Shown here: positions 52,911 through 64,000 of the stretch, in pieces | Numbering within the stretch: the stretch's first letter is position 1 | How the letters are laid out: every line of letters starts with the position of its first letter | Assembly: GCF_020181595.1 (NCBI RefSeq) | Contig: NZ_CP084028.1 | Span: 2,432,398 to 2,496,397, forward strand | Source of the DNA: [Mycobacterium] vasticus | GTDB taxonomy: Bacteria; Actinomycetota; Actinomycetes; Mycobacteriales; Mycobacteriaceae | DNA: 64,000 bases | Reading direction: 5' to 3' | The notes under the pieces: generated by a model | Seen by the model: the letters and a program-made list of their open reading frames with translations, nothing else | Told to the model about the DNA's origin: nothing | The model's database searches: none | Position numbers and translations under genes: made by a program

Positions 52911-55103
52911 TCAGCTGTTGGGGTTCGGGGCAGATGCGCCGTCAGCTCCGGGTGTTCCCGGTGTTCCGTCGGCGCCGCCGTCGGTGCCGTTGCCGCCGGG
53001 GTTCTGGTAGCTCCCGCCACCGTCGCCGCCGTTGCCACCGGCACCATCGCCGTTGGGGCCGGCCTGTCCGCCGATTCCACCGTTGCCGCCGCTACCGCTT
53101 GCGACAAGTCCGGCGCCGCCACCGCCGTTGCCGCCGTCGCCACCAGTTCCTCCGGTGCCGCCGTTGGCGGCTCCGCCCGTGCCGCCGGTCCCGCCGTAGC
53201 CGTTTTGCAAGCTGTTGTCGTCTGAGCCTAGAGGGCCTAGGCCGCTGCCGCCGACGCCACCGTTGCCGCCGTTGCCGCCTTGGCCTCCTGTGCCTGCGCC
53301 GCCACCTCCACCCCCGCCGCCACCGGCATGCATCGAGCCGCCGGAGCTGTTGCCGGCTCCGCCGCTGCCGCCTGCACCGCCGACGCCGCCGTCACTGGCG
53401 CCGCCGTTGCCGCCGACACCACCCTTGCCGCCGGTACCGCTGGCGCCCAAACCAGCGCCGCCACCTATGCCGCCCGCACCACCGTGGCTCGCAGCTCCGC
53501 CATCGACGCCATCACCGCCGTCACCGCCGGTGCCGCCGTCGCCACCGTTGCGGCCACCGGTCATGGGGCTCGTGATGCCCCCAACGCCGCCGTTGCCGCC
53601 GGCCCCGGCGACGCTGCCGGCACCGCTGGCCTCACCGCCGTTGCCGCCATTGCCGCCCGCACCGCCGTCACGGGCGCTGCTCAGGGCGCTGCCCGGGCCG
53701 CCGCTGCCGCCGTCGCCACCCTTACCGGCGGTGCTGTCGACACCCTGGGCCGAGCCACCGGCGCCGCCGTTGCCACCGACACCACCATCACGGCCGCTGC
53801 CTAAGCCACCGGCGACACCGCCGAGACCGCCGTTGCCGCCGTTACCCGCGGTGCTGCCGTCACCAGTGGCTGCGCCACCACTACCGCCGGCACCACCGAC
53901 ACCACCATCGCGGCCGCCACCCATGGCGCTGCCGGGGCCGCCTCGCCCGCCGTCACCACCGTTGCCGGCGGTGCTGCCGTCACCGATGGCAGCGCCACCG
54001 TTGCCACCGGTGCCTCCGCTGCTGCCGTCGATGTTTCCCATGCCGAGGGCGAAGGCGCCACCGATTCCGCCATTGCCGCCGTTACCAGCGATGCTGTCAG
54101 CGCCGCTGCTGGCGCCGCCGTCACCGCCGTTGCCGCTGGTGCCGGCGTCACCACTGAGCCAGTAGCCGGACTGACTGCCCTTGCCACCCTCACCGCCGTC
54201 ACCGCCGGTGCTGCCGACTCCGTCAGCGCTGCCGCCGTTGCCGCCGTTGCCGGCCGTGCCACCGGTACCGCCGACGGAGAAGATGCCCGGGGCGCGGCCG
54301 TTGGCGCCGCCGTTACCACCGGTGCCGCCCGTGCCACCATTGCCGACCGAGTTTCCGCCGTTGCCGCCGTTGCCACCATCACCGGTAGTGCTGAACAGGT
54401 ATCCGCTGCGACCGCCGGCACCACCGTTGCCGCCATCGCCGGCGTGCAGCCCGTCCAGACCCGCGCCGCCGTTGCCGCCGGCACCGCCGTTGCCGGCCCA
54501 GTTCGCCGCCCCGCCAGCACCACCGTCGCCACCGGCGCCCCCGTCACCGCCGGCACCACCGTTGCCCAGCCAACCGGCGGCGCCACCGGCGCCACCGTCC
54601 ACGCCGTCCTGCGTGCTGCTCCAGCCGGTGCCGCCGTCACCGAAGATCCAGCCGCCGTTGCCGCCGTCGACATGGGTCTCGGTGCCGTCGACGCCGTTGC
54701 AGATCAGGCCGCAGGCCCCGCCGAACGCGAAGAGCGGGTTGATGAGGTCGTTGGTCTGCGCGCCGAGCGGGCTGTCGATCCACTCCTGCAGTGCGGCGTG
54801 CAGCGGCAGATAGAAGTCGTCCTGGAACCAGTCGCCCAAGTCAGTGCCTACCGCCACGCCGGCCAGGTCATCGCCACCGGACATCGCCGCCAGGTCGAGC
54901 GTCGGTGCCGAGTCCAGGCCGCCCCAATAGCCGGGGTCGAACAGCGTCCCCCACGCGGCCGGGTCCAGCAGGTCGGCCATGACGTCGTCGAAGTCGGCGT
55001 GTGCGGCCGGGGCCAGTCCAAACGCCGCCAACACCCCGAAAGACGCTCCCGCAGTAGCCAGTGACGCGGACCCATTTGCCTTAAGCCAACCTGAGATCTT
55101 CAC
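52911..55103 (-). CDS. Secreted PGRS-repeat protein lacking a PE domain
   Basis: This 730-residue protein starts with a Sec signal peptide (residues 1-36, cleavage after PAAHA). About 110 residues of unique acidic/aromatic sequence with two cysteines follow (GACGLICNG). From about residue 147 it is a PGRS domain of GGxGG and NGG repeats to the C-terminus. The linker CNGVDGTETHVDGGNGGW resembles the segment that joins PE and PGRS parts in PE_PGRS proteins, but the PE domain itself is missing. Export would therefore be by Sec, not ESX-5. GTG at 55103 has no ribosome site; TAGACA lies 6 nt upstream, a weak match to the leaderless pattern. Function unknown. Confidence 0.88.
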   Translation of the reverse strand: MKISGWLKANGSASLATAGASFGVLAAFGLAPAAHADFDDVMADLLDPAAWGTLFDPGYWGGLDSAPTLDLAAMSGGDDLAGVAVGTDLGDWFQDDFYLPLHAALQEWIDSPLGAQTNDLINPLFAFGGACGLICNGVDGTETHVDGGNGGWIFGDGGTGWSSTQDGVDGGAGGAAGWLGNGGAGGDGGAGGDGGAGGAANWAGNGGAGGNGGAGLDGLHAGDGGNGGAGGRSGYLFSTTGDGGNGGNGGNSVGNGGTGGTGGNGGANGRAPGIFSVGGTGGTAGNGGNGGSADGVGSTGGDGGEGGKGSQSGYWLSGDAGTSGNGGDGGASSGADSIAGNGGNGGIGGAFALGMGNIDGSSGGTGGNGGAAIGDGSTAGNGGDGGRGGPGSAMGGGRDGGVGGAGGSGGAATGDGSTAGNGGNGGLGGVAGGLGSGRDGGVGGNGGAGGSAQGVDSTAGKGGDGGSGGPGSALSSARDGGAGGNGGNGGEASGAGSVAGAGGNGGVGGITSPMTGGRNGGDGGTGGDGGDGVDGGAASHGGAGGIGGGAGLGASGTGGKGGVGGNGGASDGGVGGAGGSGGAGNSSGGSMHAGGGGGGGGGAGTGGQGGNGGNGGVGGSGLGPLGSDDNSLQNGYGGTGGTGGAANGGTGGTGGDGGNGGGGAGLVASGSGGNGGIGGQAGPNGDGAGGNGGDGGGSYQNPGGNGTDGGADGTPGTPGADGASAPNPNS
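52990..54660 (-). repeat. PGRS-encoding GC-rich repeat tract
   Basis: This is a long array of degenerate 9-bp units (GGC-GGx-xxx pattern on the minus strand) encoding Gly-Gly-X. It includes larger blocks of about 100 bp that recur with GxGSTAGNGGxGG-type units. The tract is inside the coding region. Confidence 0.8.
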
Positions 55104-55204
55104 GCGGCCTGTCTAGCACGGGAGTTGGTTACCCGCCATTCGAGCCGCAGACCCAGATATGCGTCGGAGGGAACGCACGCGTGGGGCCCATCAGCGCGCG
55201 CCGC

Positions 55205-55210
55205 TACCCT
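55205..55210 (+). promoter_or_regulatory. Candidate -10 element for leaderless serine hydrolase
   Basis: TACCCT (TANNNT) is followed by exactly 6 nt and GTG at 55217, which decided the start codon. Confidence 0.5.
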
Positions 55211-55216
55211 GACCGG

Positions 55217-56419
55217 GTGAATCTCGACCCGAACCAGGCGTCCATCCGCGAGGCCTGTGACGCCGGCCTCCTGTCCGGCGCAGTCACCCTGGTCTGGCAG
55301 CGCGGGCAGGTGCTGCAGGTCAACGAGATCGGCCACCGCGATGTCGGAGCGGGCCTGCCGATGACCCGCGACACGGTGTTCCGGATCGCCTCGATGACCA
55401 AACCCGTCACGGTGGCCGCCGCGATGATCCTTGTCGACGAGGGCCGGCTGCGGCTGAACTACCCGATCGCGCACTGGCTGCCCGAGTTCTCCGCACCGCA
55501 GGTGCTGTCCGACCCGGCCGGCCCGCTGACGCAGACCGTGCCGGCCCGACGGCCGCTGACGGTCGAAGACCTGATGACGCACCGCTGCGGCATCGGCTAC
55601 GGGTTCTCGGTGCCCGGCCCGATCGCCCGCGAGTATCAACGCCTGCCGTTCGGCCGCGGACCCGACGCCTGGCTGACCGCACTGGCAGCCCTGCCCCTGG
55701 TGGATCAGCCCGGCGAGCGGGTCACCTACGGCCACGGCATCGACGTGCTGGGCGTGCTGCTGTCCCGCATCGAGGGCAAGCCTCTGCCGCAGGTGCTCGA
55801 CGAACGGATCCTGGGTCCGCTCGGGATGGCCGACACCGGCTTCTGCATCTCGCCGGAAGGCCGTAGGCGCAGCGCGACCATGTATCGCGTCGACGGCGAC
55901 ACACTGCGCGACGACGCGATGGGCCCGATGCCGATCACCATGCCGGCCTTCCCCAACGCCGGCGGCGGGCTGATGTCCACGGCCGACGACTATCTGGCAT
56001 TTGCGCGGATGCTGTTGGCGAACGGCATGTTCGACAGCAACCGGGTGCTCTCGGAGGATTCGGCGCGGGCCATGCGCACTGATCGGCTCACCGCCGGGCA
56101 ACGCCGGCATCCGTTTCTGGGGGCACCATTCTGGGTGGGCCGCGGGTTCGGGCTGAATCTGTCGGTGGTGACCGACCCGGCTAAGTCTCAACCGCTCTAC
56201 GGTCCCGGAGGTGTGGGTGCGTTCAGCTGGCCGGGCGCCTACGGAACCTGGTGGCAGGCCGATCCGTCCGCAGGCCTGATCCTGATCTATCTGGTGCAGA
56301 ACTCGCCGACGTTGTCCACCGAGTCGGCCGCGGCGATCGCCGGTAACACCTCGGTCGCCAAACTGCGGGTCGCGCAACCGAAGTTCGTGCGCCGGACCTA
56401 CGCGGCGCTGGGCCTGTGA
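55217..56419 (+). CDS. Serine hydrolase, beta-lactamase/EstB family
   Basis: This 400-residue protein has the class-C beta-lactamase fold used by esterases, D-peptidases and lactone hydrolases. The nucleophile motif S-x-x-K is SMTK (in FRIASMTKPVTVAAAM) near residue 60. The tyrosine motif is VTYGHGIDVLG near residue 177, where YGH replaces the usual YxN. The third motif region near GPGGVGAFSWPGAYGTWW has the form seen in EstB-type esterases. No signal peptide is visible. The GTG at 55217 was chosen for its leaderless-type promoter. An in-frame ATG at 55181 lies upstream of that promoter. Substrate is unknown. Confidence 0.88.
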   Translation: MNLDPNQASIREACDAGLLSGAVTLVWQRGQVLQVNEIGHRDVGAGLPMTRDTVFRIASMTKPVTVAAAMILVDEGRLRLNYPIAHWLPEFSAPQVLSDPAGPLTQTVPARRPLTVEDLMTHRCGIGYGFSVPGPIAREYQRLPFGRGPDAWLTALAALPLVDQPGERVTYGHGIDVLGVLLSRIEGKPLPQVLDERILGPLGMADTGFCISPEGRRRSATMYRVDGDTLRDDAMGPMPITMPAFPNAGGGLMSTADDYLAFARMLLANGMFDSNRVLSEDSARAMRTDRLTAGQRRHPFLGAPFWVGRGFGLNLSVVTDPAKSQPLYGPGGVGAFSWPGAYGTWWQADPSAGLILIYLVQNSPTLSTESAAAIAGNTSVAKLRVAQPKFVRRTYAALGL

Positions 56420-56420
56420 G

Positions 56421-57041
56421 CTAGAGGCTCGCTCCCGCACGGCGAGCCTTGTCCAGAGCCGCTTCGCGCATCTGTGCCCGCTCCTCGGGAGTCCACCGCG
56501 TGGTCGGCTCGAATACCAGGGTTTGGACGCTGTAGCCGAGCATGGTGAACACGTACTCCAGATAGGGCCGCTGGAAGTCCTGCAGGTCGGCGCGATTGCC
56601 GTCGTAGGCGCTGGAACGGGTCAGGATGAGTTGCACCGGCTTGCCCTCACCGAGCATGCCCACGTGTTCGCCGCGCTCGTTGAGCGTGAAGCTGGCCATC
56701 GGCTGCACGATGACATCGATCCACGCCTTGAGCGCATGCGGCACATGCCAATTCCACATCGGCGAGGACACCACCAGCCGGTCGAAAGAGCGGACCCGGT
56801 CGATCTCGGCCAGCACCTGGTCCCAGATCTGCTTCTGCTCCGGGGTTCGTCGCTCGCCGTAAAGCGGTGCGAACTTGGCGAGTGCGGCATCTCGCCCGAA
56901 CACCAGCATCTCGTCGGTCCACACCGAGAACCGCTCCACCTCACCGACGGCGGCGGGTGCGGCGTCCAGGAACGCCTGGGCCAGGGCCGACGACAGCGAG
57001 TGTTCCTGTTTCGGGCTGGCTTCCACCCACAGCGTTCTCAT
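56421..57041 (-). CDS. FMN-dependent NAD(P)H oxidoreductase, AzoR type
   Basis: This 206-residue flavodoxin-fold reductase has the N-terminal FMN-phosphate loop RTLWVEASPKQEHSLSSALA. The conserved SSPMWNWHVPHALKAWID follows near residue 92, the PMYN-x-PxxLK motif of azoreductases/quinone reductases. It reduces flavin or quinone with NAD(P)H. It starts 8 bp after the flavin-monooxygenase-like gene and could supply it with reduced flavin, which is inference from position. It converges with the serine hydrolase, whose stop is 1 bp away. Confidence 0.88.
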   Translation of the reverse strand: MRTLWVEASPKQEHSLSSALAQAFLDAAPAAVGEVERFSVWTDEMLVFGRDAALAKFAPLYGERRTPEQKQIWDQVLAEIDRVRSFDRLVVSSPMWNWHVPHALKAWIDVIVQPMASFTLNERGEHVGMLGEGKPVQLILTRSSAYDGNRADLQDFQRPYLEYVFTMLGYSVQTLVFEPTTRWTPEERAQMREAALDKARRAGASL

Positions 57042-57049
57042 CGGGGCCT

Positions 57050-58210
57050 TCAGATCATCGCGATCGGGGATATCTTCACGCCGACCTCCAGCGCACCCGC
57101 CAGCTCGCGTGCCACGTCGTAGTCGAACACCACATGCCCGCAGATGATGTCGACGTCGCGTTTGGCGCGCTGCATCGGATTGGTCAGGAAATGCACGCTG
57201 GCCCCAGATGATTCGAGCAGATCGGCGATCACCGTGCGGGACTCGTGCACGATGTGGGCGGCGGCCGCGCGGGCATCGGCCCGCATGGCCCGCCCGATCC
57301 GCTCCCCCGCGTCGACCCCATGCTGCAGCCCCGACACCGTGTCGTCGAGCAACCCGCGCAGGGCCCGCAACCGGACCCGGGCATCCCCGAGGCGGATCTG
57401 CGCGGCGGGCTGATTCTTCTGCGCCGCACCGGAATAGGCCAGCACCCGCTCGGACAGCCGCTGCGCGAACAGCTCGGCCACCCGTTCGGCCGAGCCTAGG
57501 GCGGGCATGGCCGCCACCAGCGCCAGCGCCGGAACCATCGGCCACCGGTACGCCGAGGCGTCGTGCAGCGCAGCGCCCGGTGCCGTTCCGGAGTAGATGT
57601 CGATGACTTTGACCAGGCGGTGTTCCGGCACCCAGGCGTCGGTGATGACGACGTCGTTGGAGCCGGTGGCGCGCATGCCGGCGGTGTGCCAGACGTCCTC
57701 GACGATGATGTCACCGGCCGGCAGCAGCGCCAGCGCCGGGTAGGGCGCCTCGTCAGGCCCGCAGATCGCGCCGACCAGAATCCAGTCGGCGGCCATCACG
57801 CCGGTGGCCCACGACCACCGTCCGGACAACCGGATGCCCTCACCATCAGGCACCCCGCGGCCGGTCGGGGCCAGCGGTGCCGGGCAGCGCACCGGCCCAT
57901 TGGCGAACACCTCGTCCTGGGCCTGCTCGCCGAACAGCGCCAGCATCCAGTTGTGCAGGGTGTAGAAGCCCAGCGTCCAGGCACTGGAGGCGCAGCCGTG
58001 CGCCATCCGCCGGATCGGGTCGAGGATCTGGCCGAACTCGGCCTGCTCACCGCCGTAGCGCGCCGGCAGCAGCAACCCGGCCAGCCCGGAGGCACGGTAG
58101 TCCTCGAGGGTCTCTTCCGGAAGCCGGCGCAGTTCTTCGGCCTCGGCGGCACGTTGCGCCAGGGCCGCAATGAAGGCATCGGTCACACCGGCGTCCGCGC
58201 TGCGCGTCAT
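57050..58210 (-). CDS. Acyl-CoA dehydrogenase-fold flavin monooxygenase (group D-like)
   Basis: This 386-residue protein has the three-domain acyl-CoA dehydrogenase fold: N-terminal helices (LEDYRASGLAGLLLPARYGG), a middle beta domain (RLSGRWSWATGVMAADWILVG; WHTAGMRATGSNDVVITDAWVP) and a C-terminal helical domain of the type-2 class. I see no catalytic glutamate of true acyl-CoA dehydrogenases. The pattern fits FMNH2-dependent monooxygenases such as HsaA, DszC or SfnC. The following AzoR-type gene fits the reductase partner. ATG at 58210 has a leaderless-type TAGCGT 6 nt upstream and a TetR-like palindrome next to it. Substrate is unknown. Confidence 0.85.
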   Translation of the reverse strand: MTRSADAGVTDAFIAALAQRAAEAEELRRLPEETLEDYRASGLAGLLLPARYGGEQAEFGQILDPIRRMAHGCASSAWTLGFYTLHNWMLALFGEQAQDEVFANGPVRCPAPLAPTGRGVPDGEGIRLSGRWSWATGVMAADWILVGAICGPDEAPYPALALLPAGDIIVEDVWHTAGMRATGSNDVVITDAWVPEHRLVKVIDIYSGTAPGAALHDASAYRWPMVPALALVAAMPALGSAERVAELFAQRLSERVLAYSGAAQKNQPAAQIRLGDARVRLRALRGLLDDTVSGLQHGVDAGERIGRAMRADARAAAAHIVHESRTVIADLLESSGASVHFLTNPMQRAKRDVDIICGHVVFDYDVARELAGALEVGVKISPIAMI

Positions 58211-58216
58211 GCCCGG

Positions 58217-58222
58217 ACGCTA
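58217..58222 (-). promoter_or_regulatory. Candidate -10 element of the monooxygenase-reductase pair
   Basis: On the minus strand this reads TAGCGT (TANNNT), exactly 6 nt before the ATG at 58210, consistent with a leaderless message. The operator palindrome abuts it upstream. Confidence 0.5.
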
Positions 58223-58240
58223 CCATACCTTTTAGTATGG
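58223..58240. promoter_or_regulatory. Palindromic operator, probably for the adjacent TetR regulator
   Basis: CCATAC-N6-GTATGG is a perfect 6-bp inverted repeat with a 6-bp spacer. It lies in the 41-bp gap between the TetR stop and the monooxygenase start and covers the space between -10 and -35. Size and symmetry fit a TetR dimer site. Confidence 0.65.
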
Positions 58241-58251
58241 CCGGTGGTGGA

Positions 58252-58821
58252 TCAGTGCCGCAGCATCACATCCACGAACTTCTCGCGGCGTTCCGCGGCA
58301 AGCCGGCCCGGTCGTGAACCGGACACATGCAGGAACCCGATCCCGGCGGCGAAAGTGGCGCCCGCACGCATCTCGGCCTCCTCGGCGTCGAAGCCGTCGT
58401 CGAGAAACACCTGCCGAACCGCCTTGAGCACCCGACGATCCGAGGCACGCACCGCCTCAGCGACACTGGGCTCCGAACGCGCCCACTCCCGCATCGCGCG
58501 CTCCAACATCCAATGCCGCGGGCCCACCAGCGAATTCATCATCGCGACCAGTCGCTCACGCGGCGGCAGCGCATCCATCGCATCGAAGTCACCGCGGTCT
58601 GAGTCACGCACGGCCGCCCAGGTGCCGACCAGGGCCAGCCGATAGGCCTTCAGGTCGGTGAAATGCCAGTAGAAGCTGCCCTTGGTGACCCCGAGCCCCC
58701 GGCAGAGCCGGTCGATGGTCAGGGCCTTGATGCCGTCGGTGGCCAGCAGCTCGAAGCCGGCCTGCACCCAGTCCTGCACGGACAGGCGGGCATTGGCTCC
58801 CGCGGCGTCGGAGGCGGCCAT
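58252..58821 (-). CDS. TetR family transcriptional regulator
   Basis: This 189-residue regulator has the N-terminal helix-turn-helix: WVQAGFELLATDGIKALTID then RLCRGLGVTKGSFYWHFTD, with the recognition helix around KGSFYWHF. The C-terminal ligand domain is typical in length, with LVAMMNSLVGPRHWMLERA. It starts 6 bp after the flavoprotein-HEAT stop and ends 41 bp before the monooxygenase gene. It is therefore probably transcribed with the transporter and controls the downstream pair through the CCATAC palindrome. The ligand is presumably the imported compound or a product. Confidence 0.92.
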   Translation of the reverse strand: MAASDAAGANARLSVQDWVQAGFELLATDGIKALTIDRLCRGLGVTKGSFYWHFTDLKAYRLALVGTWAAVRDSDRGDFDAMDALPPRERLVAMMNSLVGPRHWMLERAMREWARSEPSVAEAVRASDRRVLKAVRQVFLDDGFDAEEAEMRAGATFAAGIGFLHVSGSRPGRLAAERREKFVDVMLRH

Positions 58822-58827
58822 GCCGAG

Positions 58828-61524
58828 TCAGCGTACCGACCCGACCGCTTCCTGCAAGGCCCGACGCGCGTACGCGCGGACGTCGGCGTCGGTGTCCTTG
58901 ACCGCGATGCTCAGCGCGTCTCGGGCCGCAGCATCCGTGCCAGCCCACCGGGTCAACCCCAGCACGGCAGCCTTGCGGACGTCGAGGTGCGGGTCCTCAA
59001 GCGCCACCGACAGCCCGGGCACCGCCGCGTCCGCATGCGAGCCGCCCAGCGCCCGTGCCGCGCCCACCCTCACCTGCCAGGCGGACTCCTTCAGCGCCAT
59101 CGTCACAACGCTGAGATCATCGTCACTGAAACCCACTTCGCCCAGGGCAGCGAGCGCCGCGGCACGCACCAGCGGGTCGGGGTCGCCGATCAGCCCGCGC
59201 ACGGTGCCGGCGCCGGCCCGCAGGGTGGCCATCGCATTGGCCACCGCGATCCGCACCTCGCGGTTGCCGTCCGCGGCGGCGACACCTACAGCAGCGACGT
59301 CGCCGACCGAAACCAGCGCACGTACCGCCTCGATGCGCACCCGGTGGTCGGCGTCGGCCAGCGCGGCCCGGTAGTGCTCCGGGCCCCCGACTCCCCGGCT
59401 GGACAACACGTACACCACGCAGGCGCGGACCACCGGATCGGTTGAGCCCAGGTGGATCTCTGCCGCTGCCGGATCCGGTATCACCTCGACCAGTTCCCGC
59501 GCCCCGTCGGCGGCGGCCCGGCGCACCGCGGCGTCGTCGTCGGCCAGCGCGGCCAACAGCGCGGCCGAGTACCCGTCCGGGGTGTGCTCGGTCAGGGTGG
59601 CGACCGCGGTACGCCGCACACCGGGATCGGGATCGGTGAGATAGCCGGTCAACTCCGCGAGCGTCGGCTCCTCCAGCGCGACGACGGCGGCGATCCGCGG
59701 CGACGGCCGGTTCTCGCTGGCCGGTGCGCTGACCCGCGACCGGATGGTCGCCGGAGCCTGGCCGCCCAGCAACGGTGGCTGCGAGACGGCATGCACCGAC
59801 TGGTCGACCGGCGGCAGTCCGTCGAATTCGGGCACCGCGACGAAGTACGGCGCCACCGGCCGCTTCAGGAACTCCATCTGACCGGACGCGTCCTTGCGGA
59901 CGTTGAGGTGATACCCCCACTGCCCGTCGTCTCGGCTGGGCAGATCGGCACGTTCGTGATAGAGCCCCCAGCGTGATTCGGTGCGGGTCAACGACGATCG
60001 GGCGGCCAGCTCGGCGCAGTCCCGGATGAACGACACCTCCACCGCGCGCATCAGCTCATGCGGGGTCCGGGCGCCCATCTCGGCGATCTCGGTGCGCATC
60101 CGCTCAAAGGTGTTCACCGCCAACGACAGTTTCGCGGCGGTCTTCGGCGGCGCCACATAGTCGTTGACGAAGCGCCGCAGTTTGTATTCCACCTGGGGCT
60201 GTGGCGGGCCGTCCGGGTGGCGCAGCGGACGGTAGATGAGCTCGTGCGCCTGCGCCAGCTGGTCGGCCGGCAGGCCCTGCGGCGCTGCGACATCGGCCAG
60301 CGTGGATGCCGCGTGCGCGCCGGCGAGGTCGCCGAACACGAACGCACCGATCATGTAGTTGTGCGGCACACAGGCCAGGTCACCGGCCGCGTACAGGCCG
60401 GGCACCGTGGTACGGGCATGCTCGTCGACCCACACACCGGACGCGGAATGCCCTGAGCACAGGCCGATCTCGGAGATGTGCATCTCGATATCGTGGGTGC
60501 GGTAGTCGTGGCCCCGGTTGGCGTGGAAGGTGCCGCGGGTGGGCCGCTCGGTGGTGTGCAGGATGCCTTCCAGCGCCGAGAGGGTCTCATCCGGCAGGTG
60601 CGACACCTTGAGGTAGATCGGCCCGCGCGCGGAGTCGATCTCGGACTTCACCTCGGCCATCATCTGACCCGACCAGTAGTCCGAGTCGACGAACCGCTCC
60701 CCGAGCGCATTGACCTGGTACCCGCCGAACGGGTTGGCGACATACGCGCACGCCGGCCCGTTGTAGTCCTTGATCAACGGGTTGACCTGGAAGCATTCGA
60801 TGCCCGACAGTTCGGCGCCGGCGTGATAGGCCATCGAGTAGCCGTCGCCGGCGTTGGTCGGGTTCTCGTACGTGCCATACAGGTAGCCCGATGCTGGCAG
60901 GCCCAGCCGGCCGCAGGGCCCGGTGGCCAGGATCACCGCTTTGGCGCCGACGGCCACGAATTCGCCGGTGCGGGTGTTCAATGCGGCCGCACCGACAGCA
61001 CGGCCGTCCTCGGTCAGAACACGTACCGGCATCAGCCGGTTCTCGATCTGAATCCGCTCGCGCATCGAGCGCTGGCGCAGCACCCGGTACAGCGCCTTTT
61101 TGACGTCTTTGCCTTCGGGCATCGGCAGCACATAGGAGCCGGAGCGGTGCACCCGGCGCACCGCGTATTCGCCGCGAGAATCCTTCTCGAACTTCACGCC
61201 GTAGCGCTCCAGCCGCTGCACCATCGCGAAGCCGCGGGTGGCGGTCTGATAGATGGTGCGCTGGTTGACGATTCCGTCGTTGGCGCGGGTGATCTCCGCG
61301 ACGTAGTCCTCGGGTTCGGCTTTGCCGGGGATGACGGCGTTGTTGACGCCGTCCATGCCCATCGCCAGTGCTCCGGAATGCCGGACGTGGGCCTTCTCCA
61401 GCAGCAGCACCCGGGCGCCGTGCTCGGCGGCGGTGAGTGCTGCCATGGTGCCCGCGGTGCCGCCACCGATCACCAGGACGTCGCAGTCCAGCCGCTGCGG
61501 CTCGACGTCGGGAATTTCGATCAT
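58828..61524 (-). CDS. FrdA/AprA-like flavoprotein fused to C-terminal HEAT repeats
   Basis: This 898-residue fusion has an N-terminal FAD-dependent oxidoreductase of the fumarate reductase/succinate dehydrogenase/APS reductase superfamily. VLVIGGGTAGTMAALTAAEH near residue 15 is the FAD site, followed by LLEKAHVRHSGALAMG, and VPGLYAAGDLACVPHNYM marks the cap-closing region near residue 390. The segment around SGALAMGMDGVNNAVIPG recalls AprA. Residues about 610-898 are a run of eight or nine HEAT/PBS-lyase-type repeats (DPDPGVRRTAVATL, DADHRVRIEAVRALV, DPDPLVRAAALAALG, DTDADVRAYARRAL). No heme or Fe-S cysteine motif is seen, so an external electron partner is likely. ATG overlaps the ABC ATPase stop (ATGA). 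Substrate unknown. Confidence 0.9.
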   Translation of the reverse strand: MIEIPDVEPQRLDCDVLVIGGGTAGTMAALTAAEHGARVLLLEKAHVRHSGALAMGMDGVNNAVIPGKAEPEDYVAEITRANDGIVNQRTIYQTATRGFAMVQRLERYGVKFEKDSRGEYAVRRVHRSGSYVLPMPEGKDVKKALYRVLRQRSMRERIQIENRLMPVRVLTEDGRAVGAAALNTRTGEFVAVGAKAVILATGPCGRLGLPASGYLYGTYENPTNAGDGYSMAYHAGAELSGIECFQVNPLIKDYNGPACAYVANPFGGYQVNALGERFVDSDYWSGQMMAEVKSEIDSARGPIYLKVSHLPDETLSALEGILHTTERPTRGTFHANRGHDYRTHDIEMHISEIGLCSGHSASGVWVDEHARTTVPGLYAAGDLACVPHNYMIGAFVFGDLAGAHAASTLADVAAPQGLPADQLAQAHELIYRPLRHPDGPPQPQVEYKLRRFVNDYVAPPKTAAKLSLAVNTFERMRTEIAEMGARTPHELMRAVEVSFIRDCAELAARSSLTRTESRWGLYHERADLPSRDDGQWGYHLNVRKDASGQMEFLKRPVAPYFVAVPEFDGLPPVDQSVHAVSQPPLLGGQAPATIRSRVSAPASENRPSPRIAAVVALEEPTLAELTGYLTDPDPGVRRTAVATLTEHTPDGYSAALLAALADDDAAVRRAAADGARELVEVIPDPAAAEIHLGSTDPVVRACVVYVLSSRGVGGPEHYRAALADADHRVRIEAVRALVSVGDVAAVGVAAADGNREVRIAVANAMATLRAGAGTVRGLIGDPDPLVRAAALAALGEVGFSDDDLSVVTMALKESAWQVRVGAARALGGSHADAAVPGLSVALEDPHLDVRKAAVLGLTRWAGTDAAARDALSIAVKDTDADVRAYARRALQEAVGSVR

Positions 61525-62252
61525 GAGTTGTCCAATGCTGCAAGGATTTCAGCGCGCAGGCCGGGCTCGGCTCGGCCGCTGCGCGGTCGGGGAACGTCGA
61601 TCAGCGCGCGCAGCGGCGCACCGGCACGGCCCAGCACCGCGACCCGATCCCCCAGTGCCAGTGCCTCGTCGACATCGTGGGTGACGAACACGACGGTGGT
61701 CGGATGTGAGCGCCAGGTGGTGATCAGCAGGGCCTGCATGGCGGCGCGGGTCGCGCTGTCCAGCGCCCCGAACGGCTCGTCCATCATCACCGCGCGGGGC
61801 GCGCCAGCGAGCCCGCGGGCCAGCTGAACCCGCTGCCGCATACCGCCGGAGAGGCTGTTGGGCAGGTAGTCGCCGAACCCGGTCAGACCCACCTCGGCGA
61901 TCCACCGATCGGCCTGCGCCCGGCGTCCGGCACGCGGCACACCGCGCAGCCGCAGCGCCAGATCGATGTTGGAGCGCACCGTTCGCCACGGCAGCAATGC
62001 GTTGTCCTGGAAGACCACTCCGCGATCACGCGCGGTGGTGCGCACCACTGCGCCATCGGCCAGCACCCGGCCGTGATCGGGCGCCAGCAACCCGGCCAGG
62101 GCGCGCAACACCGTCGACTTACCGCAGCCCGAGGGCCCGGTCAACACCAGGATCTCCCCCGGGCGCACCGCGAGGTTGAGTTCGTCGATGACGGGAATGT
62201 CGGTGTAGGACAGCCGGACCCGGTCCAGGGTCAGGCTCATGCCGGCCGTCAT
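61521..62252 (-). CDS. ABC transporter ATP-binding protein, nitrate/sulfonate/taurine type
   Basis: This 243-residue ATPase has Walker A LTGPSGCGKSTVLRALAGLL near residue 38, Q-loop VVFQDNALLPW, signature LSGGMRQRVQLARGLA, Walker B AVMMDEPFGALDS and H-loop FVTHDVDEAL. The Q-loop wording and neighbours place it with SsuB/TauB/NrtD. ATG at 62252 overlaps the permease stop by four bases. It energises the permease encoded upstream. Confidence 0.95.
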   Translation of the reverse strand: MTAGMSLTLDRVRLSYTDIPVIDELNLAVRPGEILVLTGPSGCGKSTVLRALAGLLAPDHGRVLADGAVVRTTARDRGVVFQDNALLPWRTVRSNIDLALRLRGVPRAGRRAQADRWIAEVGLTGFGDYLPNSLSGGMRQRVQLARGLAGAPRAVMMDEPFGALDSATRAAMQALLITTWRSHPTTVVFVTHDVDEALALGDRVAVLGRAGAPLRALIDVPRPRSGRAEPGLRAEILAALDNS

Positions 62253-63097
62253 CGCGGCTTCTCCTCGTTACGCGGCAACCAGCGGGTCAACCGGCGCCCG
62301 AGCAGCTCCACCGCCGCCGACGTGGCGAAGCCGAGCACTCCGATGGTGATGATGCCCACGAACACATCGGGATAGGCCAGCACGGTGTAGGCCTGCCAGG
62401 TCCGGTAGCCGATGCCCAGCCGGCCGGAGATCATCTCCGCGGAGATCACACAGATCCAGGACACCCCCATGCCGACCGACAGGCCGCCGAACACCCCGGG
62501 CAGGATTCCGGGGAACACCACCTGGCTCAACACATCCCACCGTCCGCCGCCCAGGGTGCGGACCGAGTCCTCCCACAGCGTGGGCAGTGCCCGCACCGCG
62601 TGGCGGGTGCTGACCAGGATCGGGAAGTAGGCCGCCAGGAACGTGATGAAGACGATCCCCTGCTCGCCAGCCGGAAACAGCAGGATCGCAACTGGGACCA
62701 CCGCGATCGCCGGGATGGGCCGGATCAGTTCGGTCAGTGGGCCCAGCACGTCGGCCGCCACCCGCGACCGGCCCAGCAGGATCCCGGTGGCCACCCCGGT
62801 GGCCGCGGCAAGCCCGAATCCGGTGAGGATGCGAATCAACGACTGGGCCAGGTCCAGCCAGTAGGCGTCGGTGCCCAGCCGGCGCAGCAGGGTGCGGGTG
62901 ACCTCACCGACGGTGGGCAGCGTGTCGAATCTCAGCCACCACCGAACGTGGGCCACGGTCAGCACTTCCCACAGTCCGATGGCGGCGGCCACCGAGGCCA
63001 GGCGCAGCAGCCAGGATCGTCGGACCGCGCGCTTCCGGCGCGCCACGGTGGCGGCCGGGCCTGAGTCCGTCGCGACACCGGTCAGCACGGCGGTCAC
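62249..63097 (-). CDS. ABC transporter permease, SsuC/TauC type
   Basis: This 282-residue membrane protein has about six transmembrane helices (for example LLRLASVAAAIGLWEVLTVA, IAVVPVAILLFPAGEQGIVF and YTVLAYPDVFVGIITIGVLG). The cytoplasmic EAA-like loop TLGGGRWDVLSQVVFPGILP contacts the ATPase. Similarity is to permeases for sulfonate, taurine or nitrate. The GTG at 63097 overlaps the binding-protein stop by four bases. The N-terminal 25 residues are basic and cytoplasmic. Confidence 0.94.
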   Translation of the reverse strand: MTAVLTGVATDSGPAATVARRKRAVRRSWLLRLASVAAAIGLWEVLTVAHVRWWLRFDTLPTVGEVTRTLLRRLGTDAYWLDLAQSLIRILTGFGLAAATGVATGILLGRSRVAADVLGPLTELIRPIPAIAVVPVAILLFPAGEQGIVFITFLAAYFPILVSTRHAVRALPTLWEDSVRTLGGGRWDVLSQVVFPGILPGVFGGLSVGMGVSWICVISAEMISGRLGIGYRTWQAYTVLAYPDVFVGIITIGVLGFATSAAVELLGRRLTRWLPRNEEKPR

Positions 63098-64000
63098 ACC
63101 ACACCCGCCAGTGCTTGCTGGTACTCGACGGCCGCCGAGCCGGGGTGCGCCGCCAGGTAGCGCTTGGCGCCCGCGCTGGTGTCGAACGGCAGGTAGCGGA
63201 AGCCGTCGCGGACCCAGACCGACTTGTCGGCGAACCAGCGGGTGCCCAGCTCGGTGTCGTAGACATAGGCCGCCCGGACGTGATCGCCGCGGTCGCCGGC
63301 AGCCCGCACCGCCTGTAGCAGTCTGGTCGAATCGGCCACGGTGACCGTCGAATCCGATCCGTCGAGCCAGAGCTCACCGCCCCCCGGTGCGGAGCCGCCT
63401 CCCGACGCCAGCGCCGAGTCGTAGTCGACTTTGCGTTCGGCGAACGCCGCCCGCAGCGGCGCGTCGTCAACGAATCCGTCGACATCGAGGTCACCGAAGT
63501 CGCCGATCGACTTCAGGTAGGGCAGGTCGTTTCTCAACGCCTCGATCAGGGACGGCTTGAGGGTGGTGTCGAAGGAGGTCCCGCCGGGCCCGTTGTAGAG
63601 ATAGACCACCTCCTGGGGAAGTCCGCTGTCGGCGGCCACTATTCGGGACGCCTCCAGCGGCTTGCGGTTGAGAAAGTCGGTGGCGTCCAGCTGCGCCTGC
63701 AGGAAAGCGCCGAGCACTTCGGGATGTGCTCGGGCGTAGCCGCGACGCACCACCACGCCGTGCAGGGTCGGGTAGTTCAGCTCGGCGCCGTCGTAGAGCA
63801 GTTTCGCCCGGCCCTGATAGACCAGCAGCCCGGGCCAGGCCACGAACTGCGAGAGCCCCTGCACCTGACCGGATTCCAGCGACGACGCACCGACCTGAGG
63901 CTGCTGGTTGAGCACGTCCACACTGGCTCCCGAGCCGGCCAGCGCACGCAGCAGGGTGCCGTGGCCAGCCGAGCCCACACTGGCCGACACCTTGGCTCCG
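63094..64000 (-). CDS. ABC transporter substrate-binding protein, SsuA/TauA type (runs off right edge)
   Basis: The last 301 codons of a periplasmic-type binding protein are present; the signal or lipoprotein N-terminus lies beyond the window. It carries the NMT1/SsuA-like motifs AGHGTLLRALAG and ESGQVQGLSQFVAWPGLLVY. The C-terminal lobe contains YARAHPEVLGAFLQAQLDAT. The C-terminus also includes a tail (from about DSTRLLQAVRAAGD) rich in aromatic and charged residues that I cannot assign. The homologues bind taurine, alkanesulfonates, nitrate or thiamine precursors; the ligand here is not predictable. It overlaps the permease start by four bases. Confidence 0.9.
   Translation of the reverse strand, partial: GAKVSASVGSAGHGTLLRALAGSGASVDVLNQQPQVGASSLESGQVQGLSQFVAWPGLLVYQGRAKLLYDGAELNYPTLHGVVVRRGYARAHPEVLGAFLQAQLDATDFLNRKPLEASRIVAADSGLPQEVVYLYNGPGGTSFDTTLKPSLIEALRNDLPYLKSIGDFGDLDVDGFVDDAPLRAAFAERKVDYDSALASGGGSAPGGGELWLDGSDSTVTVADSTRLLQAVRAAGDRGDHVRAAYVYDTELGTRWFADKSVWVRDGFRYLPFDTSAGAKRYLAAHPGSAAVEYQQALAGVV

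Follow-up and report, generated by a model that had tools for sequence, protein, structure and literature searches.

A conserved importer, flavoprotein and ferredoxin operon of [Mycobacterium] vasticus and other Actinobacteria: a possible route to sulfur from small organosulfur anions

The analyzed stretch, hereafter the window, comprises 64,000 nucleotides of [Mycobacterium] vasticus (positions 2432398-2496397 on a single 4.55-Mb contig). At positions 56421-64000 it encodes, on the minus strand, an SsuABC/TauABC-type ATP-binding cassette (ABC) transporter, an FrdA/AprA-like flavoprotein fused to HEAT repeats, a TetR regulator, an acyl-CoA dehydrogenase (ACAD)-fold protein and an AzoR-like protein, as stated in a first-pass annotation of the window and confirmed by open reading frames (ORFs) and domains. 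The single seven-gene set proposed there stands as far as the shared strand is concerned, but the genes fall into two adjoining units. Unit 1, an operon, begins past the window end, with the genes of a ferredoxin and of a GntR regulator with a UTRA domain both beyond the window; unit 2 consists of the TetR, monooxygenase and AzoR genes. The DNA past the window end was taken from L002 (C1:2486000-2505999), where the window position equals the L002 position plus 53602. According to ORFs and domain scans, unit 1 reads as follows, in the order of the minus strand.

L002 11094-11837, minus strand: GntR regulator with a UTRA domain (domain scan)
L002 10870-11097, minus strand: ferredoxin of 75 amino acids with two 4Fe-4S motifs (domain scan)
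Window 63094 to beyond 64000, L002 9492 to ~10844, minus strand: binding lipoprotein with NMT1/SsuA-type lobes and a C-terminal extension (full ORF in L002)
Window 62249-63097, minus strand: ABC transporter permease, TauC/SsuC/NrtB-type (profile matches; kept beside the flavoprotein)
Window 61521-62252, minus strand: ABC transporter ATPase, TauB/SsuB-type (profile matches; conserved)
Window 58828-61524, minus strand: flavoprotein (residues ~1-570) fused to HEAT repeats (~605-898), 898 amino acids, family NF010374 (profile matches, alignments)

The tight joints described earlier are overlaps of 4 bp from the binding protein to the flavoprotein (binding protein/permease, permease/ATPase, ATPase/flavoprotein), and the GntR and ferredoxin genes overlap by 4 bp as well; the flavoprotein and TetR genes are separated by a 6-bp gap. 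The binding protein likely starts ~450 codons upstream of its stop codon, at L002 position 10844, so that the window does not contain its 5' end. The key partner, the ferredoxin, is likewise encoded beyond the window and was therefore invisible to the first-pass annotation. The GntR/UTRA protein probably regulates the operon. It is closest to PhnF/HutC-type GntR regulators in a profile search, and an operator search upstream of its gene found no perfect palindrome common to different loci.

The GTDB genome scan with the flavoprotein yielded at least 592 candidate stretches encoding a relative, the best 80 named loci of which were considered; they come from Mycobacterium, Mycolicibacter, Mycolicibacterium, Mycobacteroides, Nocardia, Rhodococcus, Antrihabitans, Aldersonia, Gordonia, Tsukamurella, Streptosporangium, and Planotetraspora. 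Upstream of the flavoprotein gene, 74 out of 80 loci extend for 4.2 kb or more, the remaining six beginning nearer the contig end, and in all 74 testable loci the GntR, ferredoxin, binding protein, permease, and ATPase genes precede it in identical order and on the same strand. Thus, the co-inheritance of transporter and flavoprotein, proposed earlier as a check, holds in all 74; that of the TetR–monooxygenase pair does not (four out of 68 loci, see below). The match extends into the HEAT part in 80 out of 80 named loci, the shortest one, at a contig end, covering residues 1-758, and the fusion, previously called unusual, is not rare: the protein exceeds the cut-off of the NCBIfam equivalog NF010374 (1718.7 vs. 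1196 bits). Within the family of the window genome, 35 out of 151 genomes hold a match above this cut-off, which makes the operon an accessory trait in that group. No further conserved partner gene beyond the six stood out among neighbor clusters of at least six loci in Actinobacteria; the other recurrent neighbors, named by eye, seem to belong to the local chromosomal site.

Several individual loci depart from the common pattern. An ORF resembling IS200/IS605 TnpB, recognized by eye, lies between the operon permease and ATPase genes of genome G146 (L117:9183-10331). In Antrihabitans (L044:2134-5673), a second SsuABC-like transporter set, whose binding protein matches NMT1, and an asparaginase-like ORF (by eye) are situated between the ferredoxin and binding protein genes. 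In G008, a family member, a decayed flavoprotein copy consists of three matched pieces, one of them with an internal stop (G008:C1:763727-764981), and the gene appears to be in the process of being lost.

Relatives outside Actinobacteria were collected by tblastn of plasmid records, 54 of which matched; 18 were fetched, picked for breadth and annotation, and genes in them were counted by tblastn with Cupriavidus and other homologs. The flavoprotein identity is 55-61% in most non-actinobacterial plasmid records, and the ferredoxin is present in all 18, which represent Actinomycetota, Cyanobacteriota, and Pseudomonadota. The HEAT-repeat protein is encoded by a separate gene of the cluster, which either adjoins the ferredoxin gene or follows those of the transporter, in 17 out of 17 non-actinobacterial loci; in the eighteenth record, from Tsukamurella, the two parts are fused. 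Hence, the flavoprotein-HEAT protein unites two partners in one chain. Separate HEAT proteins could be aligned with the HEAT tail of the window protein in 14 out of 14 tests (blastp E-values from 2e-14 to 4e-3); since HEAT repeats resemble one another, the position in the cluster carries more weight than the alignment as evidence that they correspond. An actinobacterial locus with two genes, L118, has a likely 4-bp overlap between them (HEAT start 6191, flavoprotein stop 6188), with the ferredoxin, binding protein, permease, ATPase, FdxA, and FprA genes downstream of HEAT, and GntR, LysR, and a YeiH-type gene upstream. The binding protein, permease, and ATPase are found together in 15 out of 18 plasmid stretches, and not in L083 (Nostoc), L086 (Acidithiobacillus), and L092 (Mesorhizobium).

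The closest solved relative of the flavoprotein, according to the profile search, is the alpha subunit of 3'-phosphoadenosine 5'-phosphosulfate (PAPS) reductase from Methanothermococcus thermolithotrophicus (PDB:8a8o, 282.6 bits), followed by AprA, the alpha subunit of adenosine 5'-phosphosulfate (APS) reductase, from A. fulgidus (205 bits) and SdhA from E. coli (132.5 bits). This agrees with the resemblance to APS reductase noticed earlier. The protein belongs to NF010374 (PRK13800) over its full length, and a tested Variovorax relative exceeds the cut-off of NF006131 (PRK08275; 1059.4 vs. 587). Both families are named "fumarate reductase/succinate dehydrogenase flavoprotein subunit," implying succinate/fumarate chemistry, which nothing here supports: the protein falls below the succinate dehydrogenase and fumarate reductase models (TIGR01812, 153.2 vs. 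567.3 bits; TIGR01816, 133.0 vs. 727.35 bits). So the fusion protein is already known as a named NCBI family, the name suggests the wrong chemistry, and the fumarate reductase annotation is very likely misleading. It also falls below the aprA model (TIGR02061, 133.6 vs. 641.75 bits). Of three AprA residues compared, Asn74 and the substrate arginines Arg260 and Arg265, the first aligns with Asn61 of the flavoprotein, an asparagine in 11 out of 11 rows of alignment A3; the two arginines are replaced. Over the flavin domain as a whole, very many residues are invariant from phylum to phylum.

The eight cluster cysteines of the operon ferredoxin are invariant in 10 out of 10 aligned proteins, giving it two predicted [4Fe-4S] clusters, and in the profile search it matches AprB (3gyx_B, 9e-10) and the beta subunit of 8a8o (1.3e-8). 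An invariant tryptophan immediately after a cluster cysteine aligns with the Cys-Trp of AprB. As in the PAPS reductase and the dissimilatory APS reductase AprAB, a flavin adenine dinucleotide (FAD) protein and a 2x[4Fe-4S] protein are encoded together, here as a predicted alpha-type flavoprotein and a ferredoxin in one operon, with the conserved asparagine and the beta-type tryptophan shared. Unlike these enzymes, unit 1 includes an importer and a HEAT part of its own; its relatives add DUF971 or Mrp/NBP35 proteins. According to the description of 8a8o, the enzyme is an alpha2beta2 complex in which the flavin N5 attacks the sulfur, and Trp42 is proposed to participate in electron transfer (PMC10322725).

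The importer resembles the TauABC/SsuABC systems in the fold of its binding protein and, for all three of its proteins, in sequence class, and its earlier assignment to this type holds: the closest solved relatives of the binding protein, by sequence and by fold, are the taurine and alkanesulfonate binders TauA and SsuA. The fold model was that of the homolog from L005, built with 30 sequences (mean predicted local distance difference test (pLDDT) score 84.8), and its best Foldseek match is TauA (6ssy, E-value 9.8e-16), followed by SsuA (3ksx). The substrate-specific models are not reached, though: the binding protein scores 106.9 vs. 163.5 bits with the SsuA family model TIGR01728 and 56.5 vs. 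304.25 bits with the taurine model TIGR01729, the ATPase is below the TauB cut-off (210.6 vs. 357 bits), and the permease below that of NrtB (129.1 vs. 209.05 bits). The binding protein is also longer, ~450-470 amino acids compared to ~300-320 in TauABC/SsuABC systems, and ends in distant relatives in a NosL-like part. A C-terminal NosL match (PF05573) was obtained for nine out of nine non-actinobacterial binding proteins tested, in two of them above the 24-bit Pfam cut-off, and the Pfam scan gave none for the window protein and two actinobacterial relatives; in alignment A1, actinobacterial proteins align over their full length with the NosL-matching ones. As the NosL-like end contains no conserved Cys or Met in this alignment, copper binding is not implied.

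Recurrent neighbors of the module in relatives bear on the direction of electron flow. FdxA occurs in three out of 18 plasmid stretches and ferredoxin-NADP reductase in two. FdxA exceeds its cut-off in L086, L095, L098, and L118, and the reductases are of two unrelated kinds: L095 and L098, one alphaproteobacterium and one betaproteobacterium, have FNR, and the actinobacterial L118 has FprA (1lqt, 299.6 bits). Because FdxA and reductases of two unrelated types sit in these clusters, electron flow into the flavoprotein is the most likely direction. Recurrent neighbors of the flavoprotein also include sulfite/sulfate exporters, in cyanobacteria, Rhizobium, Aquabacterium, Acinetobacter, and L118: TauE-type ones (PF01925) in six out of 18 stretches (L084, L085, L088, L094, L097, L100) and YeiH-type ones in three (L084, L085, L100; two by the PF03601 scan and the third by annotation), L095 being outside the exporter scan. 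The YeiH-type gene of L118 is above the cut-off of PF03601 and below that of the YeiH NCBIfam model. A DUF971/GBBH-like gene is present in nine out of 18 plasmid stretches, and an Mrp/NBP35 ATPase in four, all cyanobacterial.

Some neighbors were seen in single lineages. The cyanobacterial "LysR" neighbors (L084:5661-7676, L085:5301-7337, L100:5676-7676) are ~670 amino acids long, double the normal LysR length. On a Rhizobium plasmid, the thiC, thiO, thiS, and thiazole synthase genes are located immediately upstream of the module (L097:3580-7352), and in Paraburkholderia largidicola genes for a flavin-dependent oxidoreductase, a 3-mercaptopropionate dioxygenase, and a rhodanese follow it (L099:14529-17572).

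Gene order, homology, co-inheritance, domain fusion and fission, and recurrent neighbors were computed; from these we infer the substrate class, the direction of electron flow, and the product. We tentatively predict that the importer, the PAPS-reductase-alpha-like flavoprotein, and the dicluster ferredoxin together serve the uptake of a small organosulfur anion and the reductive release of sulfite as a sulfur source, a reading reached from the likely electron entry, the sulfite/sulfate exporters, and the sulfonate-class importer. The importer would take up the anion; electrons would pass from NADPH via ferredoxin-NADP reductase, FdxA, and the operon ferredoxin to the FAD of the flavoprotein; N5 of the reduced flavin would attack the substrate sulfur, in line with the mechanism put forward for APS and PAPS reductases; and the resulting flavin–sulfite adduct would yield free sulfite for cysteine synthesis. 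Surplus sulfite may be exported in lineages with TauE/YeiH-type exporters, and the HEAT repeats are probably a scaffold to which the flavoprotein and its partner(s) attach. Thus, a dedicated organosulfur pathway, as suggested earlier, is the best reading for the importer and flavoprotein, not for all seven genes.

A number of observations weigh against this prediction. The position of AprA Arg265 is occupied by Leu250 in 11 out of 11 rows of A3, and that of Arg260 by Phe245 (Phe in nine rows, Tyr in two); therefore, the known mode of APS binding is not expected of the flavoprotein, and its chemistry may be different. Six polyferredoxin-type chains outscore AprB in the ferredoxin search, so that by its sequence the closest relative of the ferredoxin is not specifically AprB. 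The structure model of the flavoprotein (mean pLDDT 66, flavin domain largely <50) was too poor and was excluded from the fold search, and exporters and ferredoxin-NADP reductases adjoin a minority of loci. SsuD-like genes (E-value ≤1e-60) are present in 30 out of 35 family genomes with the flavoprotein, and oxygenase genes lie near the flavoprotein in L087, L089, L099, L115, L116, and L117. Finally, according to a review, the reductase and ferredoxin of the Asf system provide the electrons for an oxygenation (PMC4267179).

The strongest alternative, less probable than reductive release and in itself doubtful, is that the flavoprotein and ferredoxin are an Asf-type electron-transfer module feeding an oxygenase encoded elsewhere for oxidative (aryl)sulfonate cleavage. 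The asfRABC genes of Pseudomonas putida S-313, compared by their description only, likewise comprise a reductase, a ferredoxin, a binding protein, and an ABC transporter, and two papers list asfA from the aromatic-sulfonate users Rhodococcus, Variovorax, Cupriavidus, Burkholderia, and Pseudomonas (PMC4267179, PMC2864759), genera in which the family searched here is also found. The AsfA label itself was not visible among the 120 matches listed per protein search, where names are partial and many entries unnamed. The regulator AsfR is LysR-type, unlike GntR/UTRA of unit 1, although LysR genes lie beside three cyanobacterial loci and L118, and the passages of PMC4267179 consulted do not mention a HEAT part for asfRABC. 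The literature searched, which left most subscription papers outside, contained no description of an importer–flavoprotein–ferredoxin–HEAT system beyond the Asf papers, and nothing in the accessible parts of PMC7661421, PMC13352529, PMC8305402, and PMC10373932 could be tied to it.

The distribution of oxygenases can be read both ways. The nearby ones are flavin monooxygenases in L087, L099, L115-L117, and the window, and a Rieske protein in L089, and an SsuD-like gene lies within 10 kb of the flavoprotein in three out of 35 genomes (G026, G121, G146; p ~0.0009, a rough value assuming a guessed 45 hits). At the same time, synteny and neighbor clusters of the named loci reveal no oxygenase that is constant in the actinobacterial operon, and five out of 35 flavoprotein genomes, that of the window included (G000, G001, G019, G065, G147), have no SsuD-like gene at E-value ≤1e-60, other oxygenase families not being excluded. 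The presence of the operon in the window genome without such a gene at this threshold thus fits a self-contained system. Among family genomes without the flavoprotein, SsuD-like genes are found in 80 out of 116, and the curated cut-off of the SsuD model is reached in none of the 151. Moreover, the invariant residues of the flavin domain exceed the apparent need of a mere electron relay. All in all, reductive desulfonation seems the likelier of the two, yet the evidence does not decide between it and the Asf-type relay. An extended version of the reductive reading, in our estimate unlikely, would make the system a widespread but so far unrecognized third way of harvesting sulfur, with an APS-reductase-like flavoprotein re-tooled to organosulfur anions, O2-free NADPH-driven desulfonation via a flavin-N5-sulfite adduct, a HEAT scaffold, an importer receptor with a NosL-derived domain, and AsfA itself as the desulfonating enzyme.

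Quite improbable, though more probable than the seven-gene pathway, is the import and reduction of a sulfur-free anion, e.g., of the phosphonate, nitrate, or carboxylate type, the resemblance to sulfonate systems being family likeness. The transporter subunits scoring under the substrate-specific cut-offs (TauB, NrtB, SsuA family), the replaced AprA arginines, and a regulator closest to PhnF/HutC-type proteins are consistent with it; the likeness of the binding protein to TauA and SsuA in fold and sequence, the sulfite/sulfate exporter neighbors in several lineages, and the closeness of the flavoprotein to sulfur-reducing enzymes argue for sulfur.

Unit 2 contains the following features.

Window 58252-58821, minus strand: TetR regulator, part of the monooxygenase unit, not of the transporter operon
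Window 58223-58240, no strand: palindrome-like CCATAC-N6-GTATGG, 12 bp upstream of the monooxygenase start
Window 57050-58210, minus strand: ACAD-fold flavin monooxygenase, HsaA-type (profile and sequence matches)
Window 56421-57071, minus strand: AzoR/flavodoxin-2-like reductase, overlapping the monooxygenase gene (profile matches)

The monooxygenase had been likened to the organosulfur enzymes SfnC and DszC; it is in fact closer to the aromatic hydroxylase HsaA. Flavin monooxygenases of the HsaA/HpaH-C2 type (2rfq, 2jbr) match it over nearly the full length (2rfq, 185 bits), yet it remains below the NCBIfam HsaA cut-off (240.6 vs. 450), and it falls far below those of SfnB (62.2 vs. 430.9) and DszC (31 vs. 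850). The palindrome, as read from the sequence, lies directly upstream of the monooxygenase gene here and in four named loci, and its core ATAC-N6-GTAT was found by exact search in 11 out of 14 monooxygenase genomes, the window included; two of the misses resemble near matches, and at the third the sequence is incomplete. It is a probable operator of the TetR protein. Among the 151 family genomes, the monooxygenase (E-value ≤1e-60) occurs in 14, the flavoprotein in 35, and both in 10; in the nine of these other than the window genome the two genes are on different contigs (eight draft assemblies) or ~0.7 Mb apart (one). In the ~4.1-kb loci of the 13 other monooxygenase genomes, a TetR homolog is found within ~1.5 kb of the monooxygenase in nine and the flavoprotein in none. 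Hence unit 2 is probably a separate neighbor of the transporter operon, and the TetR gene, earlier counted with the operon, belongs with the monooxygenase. Of the loci compared, just the window and L005 have AzoR next to the monooxygenase.

A single organosulfur pathway of all seven genes, with the monooxygenase and AzoR among them, is therefore highly improbable and was rejected on linkage: despite the same-strand adjacency here and the flavoprotein–TetR–monooxygenase order in L003, L004, L005, and L012, these are just four out of 68 loci that extend 3 kb or more downstream, four out of 14 monooxygenase genomes lack the flavoprotein, the two are non-adjacent in nine of the other 10, and the monooxygenase has its own TetR and palindrome.

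Two further genes lie on the other side of unit 2. A beta-lactamase-fold (serine hydrolase) gene (window 55181-56419) converges on AzoR; its homologs are present within the fetched flanks of 29 out of 80 named loci, probably marking a common chromosomal site rather than a partner. A long Gly/Ala-rich repetitive ORF (window 52911-55103, minus strand) resembles, by eye, a protein of the polymorphic GC-rich sequence (PGRS) type.

An importer–flavoprotein–ferredoxin–HEAT set is thus found in three bacterial phyla under the annotation of fumarate reductase. Even on the ordinary reading, the definition of six genes and the splitting-off of the monooxygenase unit amend this annotation. If desulfonation is reductive, soil bacteria and mycobacteria would have a sulfonate route that does not depend on an oxygenase, and AsfA, whose gene serves as a marker of aromatic sulfonate use, could have its function tested directly with purified proteins; if AsfA is itself the desulfonating enzyme, the "electron-transfer" role ascribed to AsfA-type reductases would be wrong.

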